DNA from: Armatimonadota bacterium | Lineage (GTDB): Bacteria > Bacteroidota > Ignavibacteria > OLB7 | Assembly: GCA_020850315.1 (NCBI GenBank) | Contig: JADZEY010000017.1 | Location: 1-56,955, forward strand | Direction: 5' to 3' | DNA length: 56,955 nt | Part shown: piece by piece, positions 6,946 through 40,115 of the stretch | How positions within the stretch are numbered: the first letter of the stretch is position 1 | Layout of the letters: the number at the start of each line of letters is the position of its first letter | The notes under the pieces: generated by a model | The model's database searches: none | Told to the model about the DNA's origin: nothing | The model's input: the letters and a program-made list of their open reading frames with translations, nothing else | Translations under genes and position numbers: made by a program

Positions 6946-7527
6946 ATGATCACACCAATTCCTCTGCTCCAAATTCCATCTGGGGCAAACGTTCCGCAGG
7001 TTGTGAACGGCATCATCGAGATTCCGCGTGGGTCGCGAAGCAAGTATGAGTACGTTCCGGCCTTCAACTGCTTCAAGCTGGACAGGGTGTTGTACTCACC
7101 CATGCACTACCCCACCGCCTACGGCTTTGTGCCAAGCACCCTGTACGTGGATGGCGATCCGTTAGATATTCTGGTGCTGACCGACGAGCCAACGTTCACC
7201 GGCTGCCTGATTGAAGCCCGCCCAATCGGGGTGATGAAGATGACCGACAGCGGAATCCCCGACGACAAGATCATCACCGTGGCCGCACGCGACCAACGCT
7301 ACCAGCACTATGCCTCGCTGGAAAACATGAAACCGCATGAGAAAGTGGAGTTGGAGCATTTCTTCTCCATCTACAAAACCCTTGAGGGGAAAAGCACCAG
7401 CATTGATGGCTGGGGCGATATTGACTACGCCCACCAAGTGATCCAAGAATCCATGGAACGCTACGCGAAGGTGGCCGCCGGCACGCCACGTAGCCAGGTG
7501 CTTGCAACGCCAAAAAATCATCTGTGA
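6946..7527 (+). CDS. ppa: Inorganic pyrophosphatase, family I
   Basis: A 193-residue soluble pyrophosphatase, hydrolysing PPi to two phosphates with Mg2+ in the cytoplasm. The family I signature is present: 'IPRGSRSKYEY', 'YPTAYGFVPSTL' and 'DGDPLDILVL', with its paired metal-binding Asp, then 'DDKIITV' and 'HFFSIYKTLEGK'. Length is near the usual 175-195. ATG at 6946, 8 nt after the ferredoxin stop. It overlaps the GTG of the next frame by 4 nt. Confidence 0.95.
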   Translation: MITPIPLLQIPSGANVPQVVNGIIEIPRGSRSKYEYVPAFNCFKLDRVLYSPMHYPTAYGFVPSTLYVDGDPLDILVLTDEPTFTGCLIEARPIGVMKMTDSGIPDDKIITVAARDQRYQHYASLENMKPHEKVELEHFFSIYKTLEGKSTSIDGWGDIDYAHQVIQESMERYAKVAAGTPRSQVLATPKNHL

Positions 7528-9530
7528 GGAGCGCGAACACCCCCATGTCACACAGGTTTGCATCGCTTGCGGCGCGCTGGCTTGGGCGAACGTCCGCCAT
7601 GCTGGGGATCGCTTGCGGCACGCCAGCAGCGGCGCAACCTGCCGACACCGCAAGCCGCCCCCCTGCCGATACCATCACACAGGTCAGGGACTCCCTTCAA
7701 CTTGAGCTTCTTTCGCTTCGGGTTGGCGCGCCGTTTGGCAGCGTGATTGCTCAGCAAACAACCGGGGGATATCAGTTTTTGGCGAACCGCGAAATTGCCT
7801 GGCGAAGCTATTTCACTCCTACCGATCTTCTTGGCCCCTACCTTCCTGCCTACTTGCTGGGCCAGGGCGCGCCGGGGTTGCGCCGTGGGTTCAGTATTTT
7901 TGGCTCGGCACCCGATGCCCTTTCCACAACGTTCAATGGCCGCCCGCTGCGGGACCTTGAGCGGGACGCAATGGAGTTGGAGTTCTACCCGGCTGAGTTC
8001 ACCGAGCGGACCGAGGTGCTTTCTGGTGCGCGGGCGTTGCTGTACGGAAGCGGCGAGGCATTGATGGCGGTGAACATGGTTGCGCCGGCGTTCGATGTTG
8101 TTGGCAGCTACGCCCGTGTTTGGTACATCCAAGGCCCCAACAACAGCAGCGGAGCCGATCTCACGTTTGCCCGCAATCTTTCCGCCACCACTAACCTCAA
8201 CCTGGGGTTCCGGCGAATGCCAAGCGATGGAGCCTATGTCAACCAAGATGTTTCCGGCTGGAGCGCGCGCGGCACCTTGCGGTGGCAACCATCGGCGGGG
8301 CTGGGGCTGGGGCTGACGGAGTTGTTCAGCAACCACACCCACGGGGCCAATGGTGGATTGACTTCGGAGAGTTCCTTTAACCCGCAAAGCCTGGGGACAG
8401 CAGTTCAGCATGGCCAGCTGCATGACCAGACGCTGCGCCACGATCTTACTCTATCAGCACAGTGGTATCCATTGCTGAAGCTAACTCCATCGGCCAGCGG
8501 CGCGGTGCCGGGGGGCGACACCATCACACGGTTCGATGCAAGCCTCTACTACTCCTTTGCCGAGCGAAGCCTTCTGATTGCCGACACGCTTGCCCCGATT
8601 GATACCGTGGAAGATCAGCCGGCGATGATGCGGCGCGATTTGGTTGGCGGAAGGCTTTCCGCACGGCTGCCGCTGGCGTTCGCGTTGCTGGAAGCCAACG
8701 GCGTGGCGGAATTGCAAGGGAACGGGAAGCTCTATCTGGAAGCTGGCGGAATGCTGAGTTTGAACGCTTCGGACGTTGCCGAGGCGCGGGGCACAGCAAA
8801 AATTCACCGAAGCCGTGGCGGGGATTTTTTCTCGCTGGCGGGGGAAGCAAACCTTCAGTTGGGGGATTCGGCGCGGCTGTTTGGTTCGTACCGCCAAACC
8901 CTGGAATTGAACAGCGATCCCGCGCCGCAGGTCTGGGCCATTCCCGATAGCAACAGCGCGATAAGCCAGTGGTTCACCTCGTCGTTTCTGGAAGCCGGGG
9001 CCGAGCTGCGTGGGGGTGGGTTCTGGTTGCGGGGCGCGGCATACTTGCGGCAAGCAACGCCGCGTGCCGGAAACGCCCATCTGGCCAGCTACACCATTGC
9101 CGCTGCCGATGTTCGTACAATCGTTCCGCTCAGTTTTCTTCGGCTGGACCTCCATCTGCTTGCAACCCTTCCCCCCGATTCCGACAAGCGATTCCCTGCG
9201 TTTCACGGAATCGGCGATTTGTACGGGCAGTTGACGCTGGTGGAGGGGAATTTGAATTTGCGCGTGGGAACAACTTTGGAGTTCCAGACAGCATTGCAGG
9301 GGGTGGAGTATGAGGTGATTAGCGGTGAGTTTATCTACCCACGCGACCCCGCACGGCCAGCCGAGAAACTCTATCCGAACTGGGGAGTGTACGCTCGCGC
9401 CCGGCTTGGCGATGCCTACCTGCGGGCCGAGCTTCGGAACATTCTTGATGCAGAATACTGGTCTGTGTATCGCTACCCAATCTGGGAACGCGCAATCTAT
9501 CTGGGGGTGACGTGGGCGTTTGTGGATTAA
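7524..9530 (+). CDS. TonB-dependent receptor-like outer membrane protein
   Basis: About 660 residues. GTG at 7524 overlaps the ppa stop, and ATG at 7545 is an equally good start. A basic N-terminus and 'LGIACGTPAAAQP' suggest a Sec signal peptide. Residues ~100-190 resemble a plug domain ('RRGFSIFGSAPDALSTTFNG', then 'ERTEVLSGARALLYGSGEA'). The rest alternates short amphipathic strands with Gly/aromatic turns, as in a 20+ strand barrel, ending 'GVTWAFVD'. The TonB box and canonical plug motifs are weak, and the barrel is somewhat short for a TonB receptor, so it may be a divergent or non-transporting relative. The substrate is unknown. Confidence 0.7.
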   Translation: MRSANTPMSHRFASLAARWLGRTSAMLGIACGTPAAAQPADTASRPPADTITQVRDSLQLELLSLRVGAPFGSVIAQQTTGGYQFLANREIAWRSYFTPTDLLGPYLPAYLLGQGAPGLRRGFSIFGSAPDALSTTFNGRPLRDLERDAMELEFYPAEFTERTEVLSGARALLYGSGEALMAVNMVAPAFDVVGSYARVWYIQGPNNSSGADLTFARNLSATTNLNLGFRRMPSDGAYVNQDVSGWSARGTLRWQPSAGLGLGLTELFSNHTHGANGGLTSESSFNPQSLGTAVQHGQLHDQTLRHDLTLSAQWYPLLKLTPSASGAVPGGDTITRFDASLYYSFAERSLLIADTLAPIDTVEDQPAMMRRDLVGGRLSARLPLAFALLEANGVAELQGNGKLYLEAGGMLSLNASDVAEARGTAKIHRSRGGDFFSLAGEANLQLGDSARLFGSYRQTLELNSDPAPQVWAIPDSNSAISQWFTSSFLEAGAELRGGGFWLRGAAYLRQATPRAGNAHLASYTIAAADVRTIVPLSFLRLDLHLLATLPPDSDKRFPAFHGIGDLYGQLTLVEGNLNLRVGTTLEFQTALQGVEYEVISGEFIYPRDPARPAEKLYPNWGVYARARLGDAYLRAELRNILDAEYWSVYRYPIWERAIYLGVTWAFVD

Positions 9531-12194: not shown

Positions 12195-15086
12195 CTACGC
12201 CTCCATATACTCCTCAATCGGTGGGCAGGCGCAGATTAGGGTGCGGTCGCCGGCGGCGTTGTTAACGCGGCCAACAGCAGGCCAGGATTTGAATTGCCGC
12301 AACCACGGGGCCGGATACGCCGCACGTTCGCGGGTGTAGGGGCGGGTCCACTCGTCGGCCATCACCACTTGCGCGGTGTGGGGGGCGTTTTTCAGCACGT
12401 TGTCGGTTTTGTCGGCAGCCCCTTCTTCAATCTCACGTATTTCCTGGCGAATGGCGATCATCGCCTGGCAGAAGCGGTCTATCTCATCCAGCGTCTCGCT
12501 CTCGGTTGGCTCCACCATCAATGTGCCGGCCACCGGGAAGCTGACGGTTGGCGCGTGGAAACCGTAATCCATCAGCCGCTTGGCAACATCCTCAACCTCA
12601 ATTCCGCTGGCGGCCTTCAGTTGGCGAAGATCCAAAATGCACTCGTGCGCAACGGTTCCGTTAGTCCCTTTGTAGAGCACGGGATAATGTTCTTCCAAGC
12701 GTTTGGCAATATAGTTGGCGTTCAGGATTGCCACTTTGGTTGCGTGGGTTAGCCCTTTGCCCCCCATCATAAAAATGTACATCCAGCTGATTGGCAGGAT
12801 GCTTGCGCTTCCCCACGGCGCAGCCGATACAGGACCGATTGCTTGGCTTCCCCCAATTTTCACCACTGGATGTCCGGGCAAGAATGGAGCAAGGTGAGCC
12901 GCAACGCCGATTGGCCCCATCCCCGGCCCGCCGCCGCCATGCGGAATGCAGAAGGTTTTGTGAAGATTCAGGTGGCAAACATCCGCGCCGATTGTTGCCG
13001 GGCTGGTTAGCCCAACTTGTGCGTTCATGTTTGCGCCGTCCATATACACTTGCCCGCCATTCCGGTGAATCACTTCGCAGATTTCACGAATCCCTTCCTC
13101 GAACACGCCGTGGGTGCTGGGGTACGTGACCATCAGCGCGGCAAGATTATCCTTGTGTTCTTCGGCTTTTTTCTTCAGGTCTTCCACGTCAATGTTGCCG
13201 TTTGGCGCGGTCCCCACCACCACTACTTTCATCCCCACCATCACCGCGCTTGCGGGGTTGGTTCCGTGTGCCGATTGGGGGATCAGGCAAACGTTCCGGT
13301 GCGATTCGCCACGGGCGCGGTGATACGCCATAATCACCAGCAACCCGGCATACTCCCCTTGTGCCCCAGCGTTCGGTTGCAAGGAGACTTTGGCGAACCC
13401 AGTGATGTTCTCCAACGCTTCCTCCAGCGTGCTGAACAGGATGTGATAGCCTTCGGTCTGCTCGCTTGGTGCAAACGGATGGAGCTTTCCGAACTCCGGC
13501 CACGTCACAGGGAACATCTCGCTGGTGGCGTTCAGCTTCATGGTGCAGGAACCCAGGGGAATCATGGAGTGGGTCAGCGAAAGGTCGCGCGATTCCAGCA
13601 TCCGCATGTAGCGGAGCATCTCATGTTCGGAGTGATGTTTGTTGAACACCGGATGGGTGAGATAGTCGCTGGTGCGGGCGAACTCTGTCGGGTACTCCAC
13701 GGTGGCTTCGCGGGCAAGATCATCCACGCCGAACGTGATTGGAAGGCCGTTGTTGAAGACTGCCAGAAGATCCAGCAAGTCTTTCACTTGGACGGTTTCA
13801 TCAAGGGCGATAGCAATCGAACAGGAGTCCAGTTTCCGCAAATTGATCTGCCGTTCGCGGGCAAGCAGCATAATCTGGTTTGCCTTCCCATCCGGCACGC
13901 TTACCCGGATGGTGTCGAAGTAGGTGCTGTGGTGGATGCTGTATCCCAACCGTCCCAGCCCAGTGGCCAACACGGCCGTTAGTTTATGCACACGGTGGGC
14001 AATCCGGCGGATTCCATGCGGGCCATGATAGACGGCGTACATCCCGGCAATCACCGCCAGCAGCACTTGGGCGGTGCAGATGTTGCTTGTTGCTTTTTCG
14101 CGGCGGATATGCTGCTCGCGGGTTTGCAACGCCATCCGCAGCGCGGGCTTCCCTTGCGAATCCACCGACACGCCGATGATGCGGCCCGGGATAATCCGTT
14201 TGAACTCATCGCGGGTGGCAAAAAATGCTGCGTGTGGCCCGCCGAACCCAAGCGGAACGCCAAACCGCTGTGTGGTTCCGATTGCGATGTCGGCCCCTAA
14301 CTCACCCGGCGAGGTCAGTAATCCAAGAGCCAGAAGATCGGTGGCCATGGTGACGGTTGCGCCGTGGTTGCGCGCGCGGGCAATGAACTCGCGGTAGTCG
14401 TGCACCGCGCCGTCGCCAGCGGGATACTGGACCAACACACCAAACACCGGGGTGCTGAAATCGAACGTGCGGTGATCGCCCACAACCACTTCAATCCCCT
14501 GCATCAACGCGCGCGTGCGGATCACTTCAATCGTCTGCGGGAAACATTCTTGGCTGACAAAAAAGGCGTTGGCTTCGTGGTTTTTGTGGGTGGCATAGCT
14601 AAGGTGCATTGCTTCGGCAGCGGCGGTGGCTTCGTCCAGCAGCGAGGCGTTGGCAATCGGCAACCCGGTAAGGTCAATCACCATCGTCTGGAAGTTCAGC
14701 AATGCCTCCAAACGGCCCTGGGCAATCTCCGCTTGGTAGGGGGTGTACTGGGTGTACCAGCCTGGATTTTCCAGGATATTCCGCTGGATCACCGGCGGGG
14801 TGATGGTGTTGTAGTACCCCATGCCGAGGTAGGAGCGATAGACCTGGTTTTTTTGCGAAATAGCGCGAAGCTCGGCCAACATCTCATACTCACTTTTGCC
14901 ATCCTGGATTGCAAGCGGCTGCGGCAACCGGATGTCGGCGGGGATGGTGGCTTCAATCAGTTCATCAAGTGAACCATACCCCAATGCAGCAAGCATCAGC
15001 GTGGTTTCGTCGTCGTTCGGGCCGATATGGCGGGGGATAAAGTCGTCGGTATAGCGAAGATCAAGATCGTTGACGGTCGTTGACAT
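12195..15086 (-). CDS. gcvP: Glycine dehydrogenase (aminomethyl-transferring), P-protein
   Basis: 963 residues, a full one-chain P-protein of the glycine cleavage system (cytoplasm). It decarboxylates glycine with PLP and passes the aminomethyl group to lipoyl-GcvH. The N-terminal half begins '[13 protein letters not shown]' and has '[13 protein letters not shown]' and '[14 protein letters not shown]'. The PLP-Lys is in '[14 protein letters not shown]' near residue 709, and 'GSCTMKLN' lies mid-chain. No gcvT or gcvH is in the window. Its leader (15087-15230) contains two hairpins and a TAATTTTG motif on the minus strand. It follows mdh in the same direction, separated by a terminator-like hairpin. 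Confidence 0.97.
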
Positions 15087-15137
15087 GAGCCGTAGGTTGG
15101 ACTAAGTTGTTAGTGAAATTTCATGCAGAAAACCGCA

Positions 15138-15145
15138 CAAAATTA
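15138..15145 (-). promoter_or_regulatory. -7-like TAATTTTG motif upstream of gcvP
   Basis: On the minus strand TAATTTTG matches the Bacteroidota -7 consensus TAnnTTTG, 52 nt before the gcvP ATG. No clear -33 TTG was found at 19-21 nt, so support is partial. Confidence 0.4.
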
Positions 15146-15155
15146 CTCACCCCAC

Positions 15156-15214
15156 CGTGAAGGGAGTAGTCACGAGAGGAAACAGAGATCGGTGGAGATG
15201 AGCAGAGCCACCGA
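15156..15214 (-). promoter_or_regulatory. Two hairpins in the gcvP leader or upstream region
   Basis: TCGGTGG (15189-15195) pairs with CCACCGA (15208-15214) around a 12-nt loop, and CGTGA (15156-15160) pairs with TCACG (15170-15174) around a 9-nt loop. I looked for the conserved core of the glycine riboswitch and did not find it. If transcription starts just past the TAATTTTG at 15138-15145, the hairpins lie upstream of the mRNA and would be DNA-level sites instead. Function is undetermined. Confidence 0.3.
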
Positions 15215-15234
15215 ACACGCAACTCTTTAACAGA

Positions 15235-15262
15235 AACGGCCCGCCAGTGGTGGCGGGCCGTT
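15235..15262. terminator. Terminator hairpin downstream of mdh
   Basis: AACGGCCCGCC and GGCGGGCCGTT form an 11-bp perfect stem with a 6-nt loop. It lies 32 nt past the mdh stop on the minus strand. The T-rich tail (CTGATTTTT) is on the plus side, so as a minus-strand terminator it may be imperfect and allow read-through into gcvP. Confidence 0.7.
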
Positions 15263-15293
15263 CTGATTTTTGCGTGCTTCAATCGGGTTTTGC

Positions 15294-16280
15294 TTACTCC
15301 ACTAACCCTTTCACTGCGTCCCGCTCCTCCATCAGTTCTTTCACCGATGCCATAAATTTCCCTTGTGCCCACTCGTTGTGTTCCACCCCTTCCACGGCTT
15401 CCCACGTGCCATCGGCGTTGGTGCGGATTGGGAAGCCGACCATCAGCCCTTCCGGGGTTCCGTACTGGCCAGTGCTGGCAACGGCCACCGAGTGCCAATC
15501 GCCATCGGGGGTTGGGTTGGTGAGCGAGATCACCGTATCAATGGCGGCGTTGGCTGCCGACGCTGCCGAGCTAAGGCCGCGTGCTTCAATAATGGCCGCC
15601 CCTCGCTTCTGCACGGTGCTGATGAACTCACCTTGCAGCCAATCGTGGTCGCTAATTGCCTCGGTTGCTGGCGCGCCACCAATTTTTGCGTTATAGAAAT
15701 CGGGGTATTGTGTCGCGCTATGGTTCCCCCAGATTGCAAGGTTGGTCACCTCGCTTACGGGCCGTCCCGATTTCTGCGCAAGCTGGGTCATGGCGCGGTT
15801 TTGGTCTAGGCGGGTCATGGCAAAGAAGCGATCCTGGGGCATATCGGGCGCGCTTTTCATGGCAATCCAGGCGTTGGTGTTGCAGGGGTTGCCAACCACC
15901 AGAACGCGGGCATCGCTTGCGGCGTTGTTGTTAATGGCGCGCCCTTGTCCGGTGAAGATTCCGCCGTTGATATTCAGCAGGTCGTTCCGCTCCATTCCGG
16001 CTTTGCGGGGGACCGCGCCAACCAGCAGTGCCCAGTTGATATCCTTGAATCCAACGTTCAGATCGCTGGTTTGCACAACATCGCGCAGCAGCGGGAATGC
16101 GCAGTCGTCAAGCTCCATCACCACCCCTTTCAGGGCGTTCATGGCTTGCGGAAGCTCGATCAGGTTCAGCGAAACTTCGGTATCGGGCCCGAACACCGCG
16201 CCAGAGGCGATGCGGAACAACAAGGCGTAGCCAATCTGGCCAGCGGGGCCGGTGACGGCAACTCGGACATGCTTCTTCAT
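15294..16280 (-). CDS. mdh: Malate dehydrogenase (NAD-type, type 2)
   Basis: 328 residues from ATG 16280. The frame is open to 16469, but the upstream part lacks conservation features. The Rossmann motif is '[19 protein letters not shown]', then '[14 protein letters not shown]' (mobile loop with substrate Arg), '[10 protein letters not shown]', 'TRLDQNRA' and the catalytic His in '[13 protein letters not shown]'. This is the pattern of the long-loop MDH group found in many bacteria. The enzyme interconverts malate and oxaloacetate in the TCA cycle, and the oxaloacetate can feed the PckA encoded at 32330. A TATCTTTG motif lies ~54 nt upstream on the minus strand. Confidence 0.95.
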
Positions 16281-22925: not shown

Positions 22926-23384
<459 letters not shown>

Positions 23385-24592: not shown

Positions 24593-25765
24593 TTACACCA
24601 TCTCCACAATCACCGCTGTTGCTTCGCCGCCGCCGATGCAGATTCCGGCAAGGCCACGCTTCAATCCGCGGCTTTGCAGCGCGTACAGCAGCGTCGTAAG
24701 AATGCGCGCTCCCGAAGCTCCAATCGGGTGGCCAAGCGCTACCGCGCCGCCGTTCACATTCAGTTTTTCGTGCGGCAATCCAAGCTCGTTCTTTGCTGCC
24801 AGCGCGGTGACGGCAAACGCTTCGTTGATTTCAAACAGATCAATATCATCCACCGTCAACCCTCCTTTTTCCAGCACACGACGGATTGCTGTCACCGGCG
24901 CAGTGTTGAACTCCATCGGGGCTTGCGCGTGCTGCGCTTGCGCAACAATCCGGGCGATTGGTTTCAGGCCGTTGGCGGCGGCGTACCCCTCATCGGCAAG
25001 CACCAACGCTGCCGCCCCATCGTTGATGGTGCTGGCGTTGGCAGCGGTCACGCTTCCATCCTTTGTGAACACTGGCTTCAGCGTTGGGATTTTATCGAAG
25101 TTCGTTTTGAACGCATCCTCATCGGTATCCACCACCGTCTCCCCTTTGCGATCCTTGATAACCACCGGCACAATTTCTTCTTTGAACCGCCCCTCTGTCA
25201 CCGATGCCTGCGCACGGCGGTAGCTTTCAATAGCAAAGGCATCTTGGTCGTTGCGGTTGATGCTGCAAGCCGCCGCGCAAGCATCGGCGGCAACGCCCAT
25301 TGCCACGTTGTCGTAGGCATCGGTAAGGCCATCGTATTGCATTGAGTCAAGGATTTTTCCATCGCCGAATTTGTAGCCGTAGCGTCCGTTTGGCAGAAGG
25401 TATGGAGCCATGGACATGGATTCCTGCCCACCGGCAACAACCAGTTGTGCATCGCCAGCACGGATCACCTGATCGGCAAGCATCACCGCTTTCATTCCGC
25501 TTCCGCAGACCTTGCCGATGGTGAGCGTTGGGACGGAGTTTGGGATGCCGGCGCCCAGCGCGGCTTGGCGTGCTGGCGACTGTCCAACGCCAGCAGTCAG
25601 GACGTTGCCGATGATGACTTCTTCGATGTTCTCTGGGGAAACCCCAGCGCGCTCCAGTGCGGCCTTGATTGCGGTTGCCCCAAGCTGCGGAGCCGCGACC
25701 GAGCTAAGCGACCCGCCGAACGACCCAATCGGGGTCCGTGCCGCTGAAAGAATTACGGTTGGCAT
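24593..25765 (-). CDS. Acetyl-CoA C-acetyltransferase (thiolase)
   Basis: 390 residues, the usual thiolase II length. The active-site Cys is in 'IGKVCGSGMKAV' (C87), then 'ESMSMAPYLL', the catalytic His in 'GHPIGASGARIL' (~346) and the second Cys in 'GICIGGGEAT' (~376). It condenses two acetyl-CoA to acetoacetyl-CoA or works in the reverse, degradative direction. It lies 36 nt downstream of carA on the same strand, so may be co-transcribed, although no functional link is obvious. A recent partial duplicate lies 1.5 kb away (23061-23378). Confidence 0.95.
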   Translation of the reverse strand: MPTVILSAARTPIGSFGGSLSSVAAPQLGATAIKAALERAGVSPENIEEVIIGNVLTAGVGQSPARQAALGAGIPNSVPTLTIGKVCGSGMKAVMLADQVIRAGDAQLVVAGGQESMSMAPYLLPNGRYGYKFGDGKILDSMQYDGLTDAYDNVAMGVAADACAAACSINRNDQDAFAIESYRRAQASVTEGRFKEEIVPVVIKDRKGETVVDTDEDAFKTNFDKIPTLKPVFTKDGSVTAANASTINDGAAALVLADEGYAAANGLKPIARIVAQAQHAQAPMEFNTAPVTAIRRVLEKGGLTVDDIDLFEINEAFAVTALAAKNELGLPHEKLNVNGGAVALGHPIGASGARILTTLLYALQSRGLKRGLAGICIGGGEATAVIVEMV

Positions 25766-33974: not shown

Positions 33975-34010
33975 CAAGGGGAATCGCTAAAGCGGTTCCC
34001 CTTGTATTTT
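33975..34010 (+). terminator. Intrinsic terminator after pckA
   Basis: CAAGGGGAA pairs with TTCCCCTTG, with an inner CGC/GCG stem and a TAAA loop, followed by TATTTTT. It starts 32 nt past the pckA stop. Confidence 0.9.
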
Positions 34011-34062: not shown

Positions 34063-34074
34063 CCCCCCCCCCCC
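34063..34074. repeat. C12 homopolymer upstream of kinase gene
   Basis: Twelve consecutive C lie 60-71 nt before the kinase ATG, the longest homopolymer noticed in the window. Such tracts are prone to slipped-strand length change. Here it is non-coding, so any effect would be on transcription or leader structure. Confidence 0.7.
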
Positions 34075-34133: not shown

Positions 34134-35843
34134 ATGACGAACGAATCTCTGCGCCGTGTTGGCGGCTACGAACTGCTGGAACTAATCGGTTCGGGCGGGA
34201 TGAGCCAAGTCTATCGGACACGCCGTGTTGACGATGGGCTGATTGTGGCCCTAAAAGCAATCCGAATGGAGGATGTGGATACCGACTACGAGCGCCGATT
34301 ACGCCGCGAACCGGAAGTTCAGCAGGGAGCCGGACACCAGAACATTGTGGGGATGCTGGATTGGTTTCGCGAGCATGATACGTTCTACGTGGTGATGGAG
34401 TATGTGGCAGGGCGTTCGTTGGCGCAGGTGATCTACAAGGAATCGGGGCCGCTGCCGTTCCAGAAAGCCAGCGAGTATATCCGCCAGGCGTTGGCTGGGT
34501 TGGCGCACCTCCATTCGCTTGGGATTATTCATCGGGATATTAAGCCTTCCAATCTACTGGTTGGATGGGACGGCATACTTCGGCTTGCCGATTTTGGCAT
34601 CGCAAAATTTGTGTGGCAACAAGGGGAAACCCGCACCCAGAAAGGGCTTGGAACCCCAGAATATATGTCCCCCGAACAAGCACGCGGCGCACACATTGAC
34701 CACCGAACCGACCTCTATTCGCTTGGCATCACCCTGTTTGAACTGCTGACCGCACGCAAACCCTTTGCACGCAGCCAGGAAACACCCATTGGATATGCCG
34801 AGGTTATCCAGGGTGTGCTAACCGCACAGCTTCCCGACCCACGCGCATTCCAGCCAACACTGCCAGCATCCGTTGCGCGGTTGCTGCACCGTGCCACTGC
34901 AAAAAATCCCGACGAACGATTCCAGACAGCAGGGGAATTTTTAAGCGCGCTGGAGATGGTGGACACCGCCAGCGAAACGCCCTTTATCGAACCGCCATTC
35001 CACGATCCCGCAGCAACAGTGGTTGCCCCAACAGTGGTTGCCCCAACAGTGGTTGCCCCAACGGTGGCGGCCCCAACGGTAGCGGCTGGCGTGGGGGGAA
35101 CTTCGCCGCAATTGCCGCCACAACCGCAACCGCAATCTCAATCTCAGCCTCAGCAACCTACTCCATCCGAAAAACGCAAGCCAAGCAACGCCCCGCTTTG
35201 GATTATCCTTGCCGCCATTGTGTTGGGGGTTGGGGGATATTTTGGGATGCAGTGGTATCAGCAGCAACAAGGGCTGCCCGGGGATGCCGGCGTGGGGCTT
35301 AGCGCAACCGGGGCGTTCGAGCTGTCGCGGAAAATCGCGCTGGATTACCAGATGTTTTCCCGCAGCAACAACTCCAGCGCGCTTGCTTCGCTGTATGCCG
35401 AGCGCGACGTGGAGTATTTCCGGCTGAAGCGAACAACCCGAACAGCCATCGAGCGGGACATGGACGATTTCTACCAGCGCATCACCGAAACCCCGGTGTT
35501 CGAGCTTGACGTGAAGAACGCGCAAGCCACCAACGATTCCACCATCACCACCGAGTGGTGGATCACCTACGAACGGCTTCGCGAAGACAAAACGATTCTG
35601 CGGGGACAAACCAGCAACCTGCTTACCATCCAACGGCGTGGCGGCGAATGGCTGATCGTTCGGCAATCACAAAAATGGATCAAGCGGGATGACGTTGCCC
35701 CACCGATTGATACGCCAGTTGTGAAAGACATCATCCCCCCTCCCCCACCCGACACAGCTTCTGTGCAACCGCCGCCATCGCCCCAAGTGGATTCCGCTGG
35801 CGGCACGCCCCCTTCTTCGCCAGAATCACAGCGCAGACGCTAA
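34134..35843 (+). CDS. Membrane Ser/Thr protein kinase with NTF2-like exterior domain
   Basis: 569 residues from ATG 34134. Cytoplasmic kinase (1-280): Gly loop 'IGSGGMSQVY' (19-27), invariant K41, 'IIHRDIKPSN' (HRD 133-135), 'LADFGIAKF' (DFG 153-155) and 'GTPEYMSPEQA'. A disordered linker follows, with 'VVAPT' repeated four times and a Pro/Gln stretch. A single membrane helix 'PLWIILAAIVLGVGGYFG' (354-371) comes next. The outer part (~390-515) resembles an NTF2/SnoaL-like fold ('ALASLYAERDVEYFRL', 'TTEWWITYERLR', 'RRGGEWLIVRQSQKW') and ends in a Pro-rich tail. No PASTA repeats are present. It leads the PP2C-FHA-FHA-PBP gene run; the phosphatase gene follows after 10 nt. Confidence 0.93.
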   Translation: MTNESLRRVGGYELLELIGSGGMSQVYRTRRVDDGLIVALKAIRMEDVDTDYERRLRREPEVQQGAGHQNIVGMLDWFREHDTFYVVMEYVAGRSLAQVIYKESGPLPFQKASEYIRQALAGLAHLHSLGIIHRDIKPSNLLVGWDGILRLADFGIAKFVWQQGETRTQKGLGTPEYMSPEQARGAHIDHRTDLYSLGITLFELLTARKPFARSQETPIGYAEVIQGVLTAQLPDPRAFQPTLPASVARLLHRATAKNPDERFQTAGEFLSALEMVDTASETPFIEPPFHDPAATVVAPTVVAPTVVAPTVAAPTVAAGVGGTSPQLPPQPQPQSQSQPQQPTPSEKRKPSNAPLWIILAAIVLGVGGYFGMQWYQQQQGLPGDAGVGLSATGAFELSRKIALDYQMFSRSNNSSALASLYAERDVEYFRLKRTTRTAIERDMDDFYQRITETPVFELDVKNAQATNDSTITTEWWITYERLREDKTILRGQTSNLLTIQRRGGEWLIVRQSQKWIKRDDVAPPIDTPVVKDIIPPPPPDTASVQPPPSPQVDSAGGTPPSSPESQRRR

Positions 35844-35853
35844 GCAGCACAGA

Positions 35854-36945
35854 ATGGACTCACACTTGCTTAAAACAGATAGCCGTGGCCGCAAGCCCCC
35901 CAACATCCGCATTGCAACCCGCACGGATGTTGGGCTGCGCCGCGTCCACAACGAAGACAGCTTGGCAACGCTTCCCCTGGGCAATGCTTGCGTGCTGGTT
36001 GTGTGCGATGGAATGGGGGGACACCACGGCGGAGCCGAAGCCAGCGCGCTGGCGGTAGAGGTGTTTCTGCAGACGCTTCAGCAATCGAAGCAAGGGGTTG
36101 CCCAAACGATGCCGGAAGGGGTGCAGGCCGCAAACCAGCAGGTGTTCCAAGCCGCCCGCAATCGTGGCGTGCGGATGATGGGAACCACCCTTGTTGCAGC
36201 CGTGATCCAGCGGGATGAAGAAGGTGATAAAGAAAATGACGGGCATCAACTCCATCTGGCAAACGTTGGCGACAGCCGCGCCTATCTGTTCCGCAATGGC
36301 CAGTTGCAGCAGCTTACCAACGACCATTCCCACGTTGCCGAACTGATTGCTTCCGGGGCCCTGACAAAGGAGCAAGCCGCGCAATTCCCCGGGCGGAACG
36401 TTATCACCCGCGCGCTTGGATCGGAGCCGACCGTCACCCCCGATCTCTTCCAATTCCCGCTGCATCCCGGCGACACGGTTCTGCTGGCCACCGATGGGCT
36501 TCATTCAGAAATTGAGGATGAGCGGATTGCTGAAATTTTGCGCGGCAACACGCAGCTCAACTCCGCCTGCGACGCGCTTGTGGTGGCAGCGTTGGCAGCC
36601 GGTGGGGGGGATAATATCACCGTGATTCTTGCACAGCTTCAGGCCAGCACCGAACCCACGGCCATGGACTCCCCCGCAACGGTTGAGGGTATCCCGGAAA
36701 TTTCCCCGCCCCAGCTATCTTCCCCACCAGCAATCCAACGGGCGGCATGGCTCTGGGCGTTCGGCATTGCGCTGATGGCTGCGCTGGCAATGGTGTTTGT
36801 TTGGCGAGGGGTGGCCCCAATTCCCCCACCAAGCCAGGAAGGAACCACCCCAGCAACCAGTAACCAGCTGCCGGATACTTCGCAATTCTTCCCCCCCGCT
36901 GATTTGCAGCCAACACCCGGCGAAGGATTGTTCGAGGGACGATGA
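35854..36945 (+). CDS. PP2C-family protein phosphatase, membrane anchored
   Basis: 363 residues. Metal-binding and catalytic motifs of bacterial PPM phosphatases are present: 'RVHNEDSLATLP', 'VVCDGMGGHHGGAEAS', 'MMGTTLVAAVI', 'ANVGDSRAYLFRNGQLQQLTNDHS', 'TRALGSEP', 'LLATDGLHSE' and 'GGGDNITVILAQL'. A C-terminal membrane helix 'WLWAFGIALMAALAMVFVW' (~295-313) is followed by a short Pro-rich exterior. This is the layout of actinobacterial PstP and it should reverse the action of the neighbouring kinase. It starts 10 nt after the kinase stop. Confidence 0.95.
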   Translation: MDSHLLKTDSRGRKPPNIRIATRTDVGLRRVHNEDSLATLPLGNACVLVVCDGMGGHHGGAEASALAVEVFLQTLQQSKQGVAQTMPEGVQAANQQVFQAARNRGVRMMGTTLVAAVIQRDEEGDKENDGHQLHLANVGDSRAYLFRNGQLQQLTNDHSHVAELIASGALTKEQAAQFPGRNVITRALGSEPTVTPDLFQFPLHPGDTVLLATDGLHSEIEDERIAEILRGNTQLNSACDALVVAALAAGGGDNITVILAQLQASTEPTAMDSPATVEGIPEISPPQLSSPPAIQRAAWLWAFGIALMAALAMVFVWRGVAPIPPPSQEGTTPATSNQLPDTSQFFPPADLQPTPGEGLFEGR

Positions 36946-37063
36946 CTTCCCCGCTTCTTGCGTCGAAGATCCCTTGCAATGGCCAAGAGCTTTGGCCAAG
37001 AGTTTTCATCGGAAAAATGCTTAACGTGAGCAACCAAGCCAATCCAATTTCAATCAACATCCA

Positions 37064-37939
37064 ATGCCAGCATCACGTTTTCGCGCCTTGATTGATACGC
37101 TGTTCCCAAGCAGTGATGGCACCATTGAACGTAGCCAGTTTGTGCAGGAATCGCTCCGCTCGCTTCGGATGGTGCGCGACGAACGGGCGTTGCTGATGGG
37201 GTCAACCAAGCGAATCCCTTCCCGCTACGAACTCCGCATCAGTGCCGAGCAGTTCGACCAACTGAAGGGGATGCACGCAATCCGCGATCTGGAGATATTC
37301 CTGACCGACCAACTGATGAAAGAATCATCAGCCGGGGGGATGCGAACTTTTGGCGACCACCTTCTGCGGGTAGTGATTGCTTGCGACGACGCACTGACCA
37401 GTGGCGAGATATACACCGCCGTGCTCTCCCCAGAAATCAAGCAATCCCCGTTGCAGCGGCCCTTTGCGCCGCACCTTGCGGCACATCAGCCCACTGGCCG
37501 TGCAATCGAAGAAGATGCCACCCGCGTGATTGGGGAATATGGGAACCAGAGTGAGTCCCACCATGAAAACCAGAGTGAGTTGCTCCCCGCACCAGCACAG
37601 CCACCATTGCCAATCGCGTGGCGGATTGTTGTTGAGCAGGACGGGAGGGCGATTGCCAACGCCCAGCTGGCGCAAGGGTTCTGGATTGTTGGGCGGCGCG
37701 GAACCCCACGCCCCTTGCTCCCCCACAATCACCGCTCGCTTGAGTTAGACCTTCGCGAAACCGTCTCGCGCCACCAGCTGCGGTTGGAGGTTCATGAAGA
37801 TTGGGTAGTGGTGGAGCAGATTGGGAAAGGGAAAGCGTTCATTGGCCAGGACGACCCCCTACGCCCTGGGTTTCCCCGGACAATGCTTCCGGGAACCGAG
37901 CTTCAACTGGAAGGCTACACTATCCGATTGCTTCGATGA
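37064..37939 (+). CDS. FHA-domain protein with FhaA-like N-terminal domain
   Basis: 291 residues. Residues ~1-130 resemble DUF3662/FhaA_N ('RSLRMVRDERALLMGSTKRIPSRYELRISAEQFDQLK', then 'FGDHLLRVVIACDDAL'). Residues ~185-291 form an FHA domain: 'GFWIVGRRG' strand, 'VSRHQLRLEVHEDWVVVEQ' with the Ser-Arg-His phosphothreonine-binding cluster, and a final strand 'LEGYTIRLLR'. It should read phospho-Thr on partners of the kinase. The stop overlaps the next start (ATGA). The Glu/His-rich linker carries a duplicated 'NQSE' unit. Confidence 0.85.
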   Translation: MPASRFRALIDTLFPSSDGTIERSQFVQESLRSLRMVRDERALLMGSTKRIPSRYELRISAEQFDQLKGMHAIRDLEIFLTDQLMKESSAGGMRTFGDHLLRVVIACDDALTSGEIYTAVLSPEIKQSPLQRPFAPHLAAHQPTGRAIEEDATRVIGEYGNQSESHHENQSELLPAPAQPPLPIAWRIVVEQDGRAIANAQLAQGFWIVGRRGTPRPLLPHNHRSLELDLRETVSRHQLRLEVHEDWVVVEQIGKGKAFIGQDDPLRPGFPRTMLPGTELQLEGYTIRLLR

Positions 37940-38586
37940 TGGAACTCACCACGCTGATAGGAAGCACGCAGCTTATGGCACAAGCAAAACTGCGTGCTGC
38001 GGCAACCTTGCACGAAGGGCGGATGATTGCCCCGAACGTCCTAACAATCGCCCTGCAGCGAACTCAGTTTGCCGCCGAATGGGAGGGTGAACCGGCTCAG
38101 CAGATAGAGCGTTTTCGGCTGGCAATCGCTGGCGCGATGGATGAATTTATCCAAGCAAACCGCTGGCGTGTTGGCGGGTTCGGCCGGGTGGTCATCAACC
38201 TTCTGTTGGCCGACCTTGATGCCCCCTGCCGGGTGAAAACACTCACATGGCGCAAACTCTACTCCTGCATCATCCACGATGACGCTGGCCAGCAGAGCGT
38301 TTCGGTTCGGCAGCCGGAGATTGTGGTTGGCAGGGAGCATAGCAATCCCCCTGCAGAGTTCATTCCGCTACGGGACGGTGCGCGCCAACTTTCGCGGAAG
38401 CATCTGCGGCTGCGGTACTGCGATCTTCAACTGCATAGCCAGTTGATTGGGCACAATCCCACCACAATAAACGGGGCCGAAATGGGAACCGAGTGGACCC
38501 CGTTGAACGATGGAGATCAGCTTATTTGCGGCAACTGCAAAATCCAGATTGCCGAGCTATCAGGATCATTTTTCCCAGAACCATGA
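37936..38586 (+). CDS. Second FHA-domain protein
   Basis: 216 residues from ATG 37936, overlapping the previous stop by 4 nt; a second ATG follows directly. The N-terminal part (~1-120) looks like a shortened DUF3662-type domain ('EGRMIAPNVLTIALQRTQFAAEW', 'GGFGRVVINLLLADL'). The C-terminal FHA domain has 'EIVVGREHSNPP', 'RQLSRKHLRLRYCD', 'TTINGAEM' and 'LNDGDQLICGNCKIQI'. Similar domain order to the preceding gene suggests an old duplication. It overlaps the PBP gene by 4 nt (ATGA), so expression is probably coupled. Confidence 0.82.
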   Translation: MMELTTLIGSTQLMAQAKLRAAATLHEGRMIAPNVLTIALQRTQFAAEWEGEPAQQIERFRLAIAGAMDEFIQANRWRVGGFGRVVINLLLADLDAPCRVKTLTWRKLYSCIIHDDAGQQSVSVRQPEIVVGREHSNPPAEFIPLRDGARQLSRKHLRLRYCDLQLHSQLIGHNPTTINGAEMGTEWTPLNDGDQLICGNCKIQIAELSGSFFPEP

Positions 38587-40115
38587 ACCCGCTTCACATC
38601 ATTCTTCTTTCACTGTGGGGGCTGATTGTTGCTGCCGCGCTGCTGCAACGGGGCGGGGCGTTGGAGGGCTTGCGTGCGATTGAAAGGAAAGGGGCGTTAG
38701 CCCTATCGGTTGGCCTCTGTACGCTGCTTGCTGGGGGGCTGTTGTGGCGAGTGTTGTTCACCATCACCCCCGCAACCGAGCAGTTAATTATGCGGGGCGA
38801 ATCCCCAGCCGACTCTGTTGCGGCGGGGTTTGATACCAAAGCAAGATTTCGCGGGCTTGCGCAGCCGTTGGGGCGAATCGTTGACCGGAATGGAGAGCCG
38901 CTTGCGGAGTACGCGTTGCGTGGTGGGCATCTGCGCCGCAGCTATCCGGCGGGCCCGGCAACGGCGCATCTTGTTGGATATTGGACCGGCCCCGTGCGCG
39001 ACGGCGTTGGCATCGAAAAAGGGCTGACGTTGCTGAACGATTCCCTGCGCGATGACCTTCCCCACGATGCCCGGCTGGCGATTGACCTGCGATTGCAACG
39101 TGCAGCACTAACCGCACTGAACGGCAAAACAGGGGCAGTGGTGGTGATGAATGCCAGCAACGGCGAAGTGCTGGCCGCCGCAAATTATCCCACCTACGAC
39201 CCCAACCGCGTTGGCAACGACACTGCATGGAAACGCTGGGCCCGCGACAAAACAACCCGCCCCCTCACCTCGCGGGCAATCAAAGATAATTTCTCCCCGG
39301 GGTCTTCCATCAAGCCATTCATTGCGCTGGCAGCGCATGAGCTTGGAACGCCCTTGCCGGAAGAGAGCGGTTTCACCTGTGTGGGTGAATACGTGCCCGG
39401 GCGCGGCATAACGCCGATCAGCGACCACGGCTCGGCACACGGACGAATTGCCATGCCAGCAGCCATGCGCTACTCCTGCAACACCTACTTCGCCCACCTT
39501 GCCTACCGTTTAGTTGGCTTCCAACCGCTTGCCGAATACTTCGATTCGTTAGGGTTCAACCAGCGGGTGGGGTGGAACACTGGGTTGTTCTTGAACAACT
39601 ACTCCACGCTGCTGCCGGCCCAAAGCTGGGTTCGCGCACGCGACGTAATCGCCCGCACCCGTGTTGGAATTGGCCAAGCGTCGGTGAAAACCAACCCGAT
39701 CCACATGGCCGTACTGATGTCGGGAATTGCAAACGGCGGAACGTTCATCCGGCCCACGCTGGAAATAGGCCGCCAACCCGACACGCTCCGTTGGAGTGTT
39801 GACCGACGCAGCGTGGCGTGGCTTCGGGAGCTTCTGCGCCAACCGTTGCTGCAAGGGGGAACCGCCGCAGGCATCTTCAATGGATTGGAAGAAAAAGGGA
39901 TCACCATCTACGGCAAAACCGGCACTGCCGACCGCGAACCGGATGGGCGCGAACCCTCGTGGTGGATTTCGTTTGGCGAGAAAGCTGGCAAGGCGTATGC
40001 GGTGGTGGTAGCAATCCAACATCGCGATGGACAGTATGCCGGCCAGCTCAATGCTCCTATCGCCCGCTCAGTCTATCAAGCGTTGGAGCGGCTTGGGTAT
40101 TTTGGGGAAGAATGA
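38583..40115 (+). CDS. Penicillin-binding protein, transpeptidase of PbpA type
   Basis: 510 residues from ATG 38583, overlapping the FHA stop. There are two N-terminal membrane helices ('IILLSLWGLIVAAALL' and 'LALSVGLCTLLAGGLLW'). A short pedestal follows, with 'GRIVDRNGEPLAEY' and 'RRSYPAGPATAHLVGY...GIE', the pattern of class B PbpA-type enzymes. The transpeptidase has 'FSPGSSIKPF' (Ser241-x-x-Lys244), 'YSCN' (Ser298-x-Asn300) and 'YGKTGTAD'. It cross-links peptidoglycan in the periplasm. Position behind two FHA proteins and a kinase/phosphatase pair suggests control of cell-wall synthesis by phosphorylation, as known for the actinobacterial locus. No rodA is adjacent. Confidence 0.93.
   Translation: MNPLHIILLSLWGLIVAAALLQRGGALEGLRAIERKGALALSVGLCTLLAGGLLWRVLFTITPATEQLIMRGESPADSVAAGFDTKARFRGLAQPLGRIVDRNGEPLAEYALRGGHLRRSYPAGPATAHLVGYWTGPVRDGVGIEKGLTLLNDSLRDDLPHDARLAIDLRLQRAALTALNGKTGAVVVMNASNGEVLAAANYPTYDPNRVGNDTAWKRWARDKTTRPLTSRAIKDNFSPGSSIKPFIALAAHELGTPLPEESGFTCVGEYVPGRGITPISDHGSAHGRIAMPAAMRYSCNTYFAHLAYRLVGFQPLAEYFDSLGFNQRVGWNTGLFLNNYSTLLPAQSWVRARDVIARTRVGIGQASVKTNPIHMAVLMSGIANGGTFIRPTLEIGRQPDTLRWSVDRRSVAWLRELLRQPLLQGGTAAGIFNGLEEKGITIYGKTGTADREPDGREPSWWISFGEKAGKAYAVVVAIQHRDGQYAGQLNAPIARSVYQALERLGYFGEE

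Follow-up and report, generated by a model that had tools for sequence, protein, structure and literature searches.

A Ser/Thr kinase, PP2C phosphatase, two FhaA-type proteins and a class B penicillin-binding protein encoded in one run: parts of a probable phospho-controlled SEDS-PBP synthase

The stretch of DNA analyzed here (the window; 56,955 nucleotides) is contig C17, JADZEY010000017.1, of a 4.24-Mb genome in 138 contigs. At positions 34134-40115 it carries, on one strand, genes for a membrane Ser/Thr kinase, a PP2C phosphatase, two proteins with FHA domains (FHA1 and FHA2) and a class B penicillin-binding protein (PBP). We consider it probable that these five genes, together with a SEDS glycosyltransferase gene that has been relocated to a different contig, give the cell a third peptidoglycan synthase of SEDS-PBP type, which would be dedicated, under Ser/Thr phospho-control and separate from the FtsW-FtsI and RodA-PBP2/MreB systems of the cell.

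The gene run and its distribution in one family

The kinase gene (34134-35843, 569 aa) is followed on the plus strand by those for the phosphatase (35854-36945, 363 aa), FHA1 (37064-37939, 291 aa), FHA2 (37936-38586, 216 aa) and the PBP (38583-40115, 510 aa), with intergenic spacings of 10, 118, -4 and -4 bp. All five had been named in a preliminary description of the stretch and are present where it placed them, with domain identities assigned by Pfam and NCBIfam; the ATGA overlaps that it reported between the last three genes are confirmed at 37936-37939 and 38583-38586 (plus strand), where the ATG within each is the start codon of FHA2 and of the PBP, respectively, and both overlaps are kept in a same-genus relative.

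FHA1 has orthologues in four other genomes of the family (copies in JAEUSP010000046, JAFDZV010000048, JAGWAZ010000050 and JAQBOZ010000005); these were assembled from metagenomes and carry the label Chlorobiota or Bacteroidetes, in keeping with the Bacteroidota-group host that had been proposed. All six genes, SEDS included, are present in each of the five family genomes, with linkage that is broken in different ways. In the genus of the window (its own genome G000, and G001) there is the five-gene run and the SEDS gene lies on another contig (L046:6310-8067, on contig C111 of G000, and L047), while in G002 the six genes are contiguous and the frame of the SEDS protein (598 aa) overlaps the end of the PBP gene. 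Three loci, kinase-PP2C-FHA1, FHA2-PBP and SEDS, are found in G003, and in G004 a methyltransferase gene and a VanW-like gene (L010:6912-7856) stand between FHA2 and the PBP, with SEDS further along the same contig.

The distribution is narrow. FHA1 was detected in 2 of 395 sampled Bacteroidota genomes, and FHA2 and the third SEDS protein each in 2 of 296, both genomes belonging to this family in every case; the short PBP scores 714 bits within the family and 153 bits for the best outsider in the Bacteroidota sample. That FHA1, FHA2, the short PBP and the third SEDS protein have been kept together although their linkage is dispensable argues for one function. When the window is compared with its same-genus relative, the two being the closest genomes, dN/dS lies at 0.12-0.28 in the five genes and at 0.09 in the third SEDS gene, so that, judged from these sequence ratios, all genes of the set are under purifying selection; the values for the five genes, along with their recurrence in four further genomes, indicate that the set is more than a chance assembly.

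A single transcription unit is plausible for the five genes in view of a terminator-like hairpin of 13 pairs upstream, between pckA and the kinase gene (33975-34004, plus strand), and of a convergent gene for a BTAD/TPR regulator 3' of the PBP. The hairpin is kept in the same-genus relative and has the longest stem among the terminator-like sites of the region, which number 5 against 8.9 expected from shuffles. About 60 bases 5' of the kinase start there is also a C12 homopolymer (34063-34074), longer than any other single-base run of the window; it is absent from the same-genus relative, and slippage or assembly noise is possible.

FHA1 and FHA2 as FhaA-type proteins

AlphaFold2 (AF2) models of FHA1 and FHA2, built from the family alignments, have the same N-terminal topology, and on the strength of these predicted structures both proteins are FhaA-type. 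In Foldseek searches of the PDB the top match for both models is the FHA domain of M. tuberculosis FhaA, 2lc1 (7.9e-6 for FHA1 and 1.5e-5 for FHA2), and the N-terminal domains match 2lc0, the N-terminal domain of FhaA, with E 3.5e-4 and 1.9 Å over 95 columns for FHA1 and E 2.9e-4 and 2.6 Å over 100 columns for FHA2 (probability 1.00 in each case). Identities in the structural alignments to M. tuberculosis FhaA are 16-26%; the sequences used for the N-terminal domain of FhaA and for PbpA were verified letter by letter against their PDB entries.

Sequence comparison gives a fainter signal. FhaA_N (the Pfam family PF12401, also called DUF3662, with a gathering score of 25 bits) is the sole Pfam match of FHA1, at E 0.012, with a family best of 0.003 and matches in three of the five members, and it is a weak third match of FHA2 at E 0.17; a search of the window's own genome for FhaA_N at E 1e-3 gave no match. 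For FHA2 there is in addition a Pfam FHA match (E 0.0013; family best 6.5e-7), a sequence-profile match to the FHA domain of FhaA in the PDB (3po8/2lc1) and an hhalign score of 27.1 for its N-terminal domain against 2lc0, compared with a maximum of 18.1 in 60 shuffles. Sequence searches of the PDB returned nothing useful for FHA1, whether it was used as a single query or in the form of a profile, and profile comparisons among FHA1, FHA2 and the FhaA_N domains of another Bacteroidota class were not significant. The preliminary description had proposed a DUF3662-type domain in the first FHA protein. At face value the genome search at E 1e-3, with no match, would refute this by the criterion set in that description, a result that is overturned by the fold comparison, in which the FhaA_N fold appears in FHA1 and FHA2 alike.

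The sub-threshold Pfam scores, and a model confidence that is modest on average (mean pLDDT 71), could also be read as signs of an unrelated alpha/beta domain that resembles FhaA_N by chance. We regard this as very improbable, since 2lc0 was retrieved independently for both proteins, with block pLDDT values of 75-92 across most of the FHA1 N-terminal domain, and since the domain precedes an FHA domain in both; the FHA2 profile score lies well above its null maximum, and FhaA_N is all that Pfam returns for FHA1. The present case also shows that FhaA_N extends beyond Actinobacteria and has distant members that escape detection by sequence profiles.

FHA1 thus consists of an FhaA_N fold, a disordered linker and an FHA fold, and FHA2 of an FhaA_N fold and an FHA domain. 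The phospho-Thr-binding residues of FHA2 (GR, SRxH and NxTxxN) are canonical and kept in all five genomes, while FHA1 retains GR and SR, with IGK standing where the FHA loop normally has Asn residues. The layout follows that of M. tuberculosis FhaA (Rv0020c; 2lc0, 2lc1, 3po8, 3oun), which has an FhaA_N fold, a flexible linker and an FHA domain, but there are two paralogues here, one with an FHA pocket that looks degenerate, and the FHA1 linker is ∼60 residues long rather than ∼300 and carries a conserved D-x-T-x-V. The second FHA protein of the preliminary description is not FhaB: no FhaB, that is an FHA protein without an FhaA_N domain, was found in the set, and FHA2 lacks a transmembrane segment and has an FhaA_N-like N-terminal domain.

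The SEDS-PBP pair and fused counterparts elsewhere

The PBP is a class B transpeptidase (Pfam Transpeptidase, E 1.3e-42) with SSIK, SCN and KTG motifs of which S241-K244, S298-N300 and K445-G447 are invariant in the family. Most class B PBPs have one N-terminal hydrophobic segment; this one has two (38583-38750), separated by a positively charged loop, an arrangement that is kept in the relatives, and a short N-terminal domain. It had been described as PbpA-type, of which the transpeptidase part stands and the PbpA part is uncertain: PBP2/MrdA comes out best in NCBIfam and in the PDB, the match to PBP_dimer_2, the PbpA dimer domain, is weak (E 0.008), and the placement of PbpA in the tree is blurred by long branches.

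Similarly, rodA had been reported as missing, which is true of the window alone. The third, large SEDS gene of the genome lies on contig C111, and as its counterpart adjoins the PBP gene in G002 it is better described as moved; its product matches FTSW_RODA_SPOVE (PF01098, E 2.2e-36) and D300 of RDFGQF is invariant. Every family genome encodes three SEDS proteins as well as three main class B PBPs and MreB, and in trees the third SEDS protein and the short PBP branch separately from FtsW/RodA and FtsI/PBP2, each in its own clade and on a very long branch (1.39 and 1.38 changes per column, respectively). The third SEDS protein groups with the fused SEDS proteins of another Bacteroidota class (98/96). 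Because long branches meet there, neither this grouping nor the position of PbpA is relied upon.

In that other class an FhaA_N-FHA gene adjoins a fusion of SEDS and PBP into one polypeptide of ∼1220 aa (L073:5335-9000, L075:5808-9473, L076:11558-15229), and such fusions are found in 5 of 80 genomes of the class. PF12401 itself scores over cut-off in 3 of 395 Bacteroidota genomes and more weakly in others. A single open frame of 1384 aa in G218 (L077:10262-14416) joins PP2C, SEDS and PBP and likewise adjoins an FhaA_N-FHA gene, while in G084 (L076; matches L080 and L085) PP2C is a separate frame directly 5' of the SEDS-PBP fusion. Kinase genes are near the fusions in L076, where the kinase has WD40 repeats, and in L077. 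These loci resemble the window set in that an FhaA_N-FHA reader stands beside SEDS and a transpeptidase, with kinase and PP2C near in two of them, and differ in the fusion of SEDS with PBP, of PP2C as well in L077, and in the WD40 repeats of the L076 kinase. The functional link between reader and synthase is thereby supported independently of the gene order in the window, and the PP2C-SEDS-PBP fusion suggests that phosphatase and synthase can act as one machine. No paper on FHA/PBP loci in Chlorobi or Bacteroidetes, or on natural SEDS-PBP fusions, was found in a limited literature collection. The L077 genes are flanked by genes for a LysM/SLT lytic transglycosylase and a HEPN_Swt1-FHA protein (6949-9153 and 14479-15753).

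The fused loci bear also on whether kinase, PP2C and FHA proteins form a general signalling system to which the PBP is adjacent incidentally. The separation of kinase-PP2C-FHA1 from FHA2-PBP and from SEDS in G003 would be in accord with such a system. However, FHA2 remains with the PBP in G003 despite the split, all of the parts are co-retained in the family and co-restricted to it, and elsewhere SEDS-PBP fusions adjoin FhaA_N-FHA genes, one being fused to PP2C as well, so that we judge an incidental association very unlikely.

Proposed control of the synthase and origin of the module

The kinase has a Pkinase domain (Pfam E 8e-58, residues 12-264) in which HRD, DFG and the activation-loop Thr are present in the family alignment, one transmembrane segment near 354-372 from hydropathy, and an extracytoplasmic part with a weak NTF2-like (SnoaL/TIGR02246) match at 410-510; no PASTA family was found in it by Pfam. 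Its kinase domain, single-transmembrane layout and adjoining Stp1-type phosphatase recall the Stk1/PknB PASTA kinases, from which it is set apart by the lack of PASTA, by the outer domain and by a score of 267 bits against NF033483, below the NCBIfam cut-off of 450. The phosphatase scores 238 bits against NF033484/Stp1_PP2C_phos, over the cut-off of 230, and has a C-terminal transmembrane segment near 298-316 (hydropathy). Juxtamembrane T-x-V sites are present in the kinases of four of the five family members, by the pattern used.

The linker of FHA1 (residues 123-183) is predicted to be disordered, with AF2 pLDDT below 50, and cannot be aligned apart from one motif, D-x-T-x-V-[ILM], that occurs in all five orthologues. 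In the window it reads D-A-T-R-V-I and places a candidate phospho-Thr at T153 (37520-37522, plus strand); the G003 linker has a second T-x-V copy. In shuffled linkers the motif arises in 0.07-0.8% of cases each. FHA domains prefer an aliphatic residue at the position three after the phospho-Thr, and the motif provides one there. In GarA/OdhI a phospho-Thr in a flexible segment acts as a switch (PMC2784874). Conserved motif, aliphatic residue, this precedent and the T-x-V sites of the kinase together lead us to propose T153 as phospho-bait for FHA2, and that it is phosphorylated and then bound by FHA2 has, from these sequence features, a chance that we place a little short of even.

The synthase could then work as follows. 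The outer domain of the membrane kinase would sense an envelope signal and the kinase would phosphorylate cytoplasmic threonines, including T153 in the FHA1 linker and probably its own juxtamembrane sites. FHA2, with its intact pocket, would bind the phospho-Thr and thereby assemble, at the membrane, a scaffold of FHA1 and FHA2 that may position or activate the SEDS-PBP pair, and the PP2C phosphatase would reset the system. Mycobacterial FhaA is reported to control localization of the elongasome machinery (PMC11898655).

Several points weigh against such a dedicated, phospho-controlled synthase. The FhaA_N scores of FHA1 and FHA2, 16.5 and 12.8 bits, are under the Pfam cut-off, and 1 of 60 shuffles did as well as the FHA1 N-terminal domain when scored by hhalign against 2lc0. 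The FHA pocket of FHA1 itself looks degenerate, the SEDS gene of the window's own genome lies apart from the run, and the linker motif was picked after inspection of an alignment of five orthologues only, two of them close.

The same parts could also serve a different purpose with the opposite sign, as a phospho-controlled SEDS-PBP synthase that serves a particular process (stress, damage to the envelope, a change of morphology or the septum) instead of elongation in general and that the FHA proteins inhibit or sequester, as proposed for FhaA and MviN. With RodA, PBP2, MreB, FtsW and FtsI already present in the genome, basic elongation does not have to depend on the third pair; the sensor of the kinase is unlike that of PASTA kinases, and for M. 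tuberculosis FhaA an inhibition of lipid II flipping has been proposed. The sequence, however, gives no indication of the sign of control, and all of the genes are under purifying selection. We take this as a serious possibility while leaning against it.

A broader and more doubtful extension of the dedicated-synthase proposal is that FhaA-type reader, PP2C, SEDS and PBP form an old cross-phylum unit in which phosphatase and reader are built-in synthase subunits. The PP2C-SEDS-PBP fusion would then be its one-chain form and the window run a split form, with the phospho-Thr of the FHA1 linker, read by FHA2, as the switch of this family.

The actinobacterial locus pstP-rodA-pbpA-pknA-pknB-fhaA-fhaB, to which the run had been likened, links pstP, rodA, pbpA and a PASTA kinase, and the linkage of pknB with fhaA is reported from some Firmicutes as well (PMC6554272), so that the published locus is not purely actinobacterial. 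The likeness holds in function and in the domain structure of FhaA: membrane Ser/Thr kinase, membrane PP2C, FhaA-type protein and class B PBP, with SEDS in relatives, are encoded in one run. Several defining features fail, as the window set has one kinase rather than two and no PASTA repeats, two FhaA-type proteins and no FhaB, a PBP with two N-terminal hydrophobic segments that is not clearly PbpA, a SEDS gene relocated in this genus and a separate RodA-PBP2-MreB system alongside. It is best described as a divergent variant of a known locus.

The preliminary description had offered transfer or an independent module as explanations, and neither a recent transfer nor a fully independent origin is supported. 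The question of transfer is judged indirectly, with actinobacterial, clostridial and Chloroflexi FhaA and RodA sequences lying outside the comparison. Recent acquisition of an actinobacterial pknB-pstP-fhaA-pbpA cluster would account for the same functional set and for M. tuberculosis FhaA domains being among the best solved matches of both FHA proteins. Yet PASTA repeats, FhaB and the second kinase are absent, the PBP and the SEDS protein stand apart in the trees at the end of very long branches, the kinase is no nearer to M. tuberculosis PknB (<=160 bits) than to 4eqm (listed as a PASTA-type kinase; 163 bits), the GC content at third codon positions is close to that of neighboring pckA, and the six-gene set is family-wide; we think a recent transfer highly improbable. 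A fully independent origin is in turn at odds with the two-domain FhaA architecture of both FHA proteins. An old, diverged FhaA-type module fits best, and both vertical descent and an old transfer are possible as its source.

Even in mycobacteria earlier data on FhaA and wall control have been called difficult to reconcile (PMC11898655). The family studied here, an independent lineage, offers a simpler test case: its two FhaA-type proteins are compact, the short linker bears just one conserved candidate phospho-site, and the third SEDS-PBP pair exists alongside the ordinary Rod and division systems.

Elsewhere in the window, a 150-aa thiolase-like frame (22932-23384) resembles an internally deleted copy of a nearby full thiolase gene (24593-25765).

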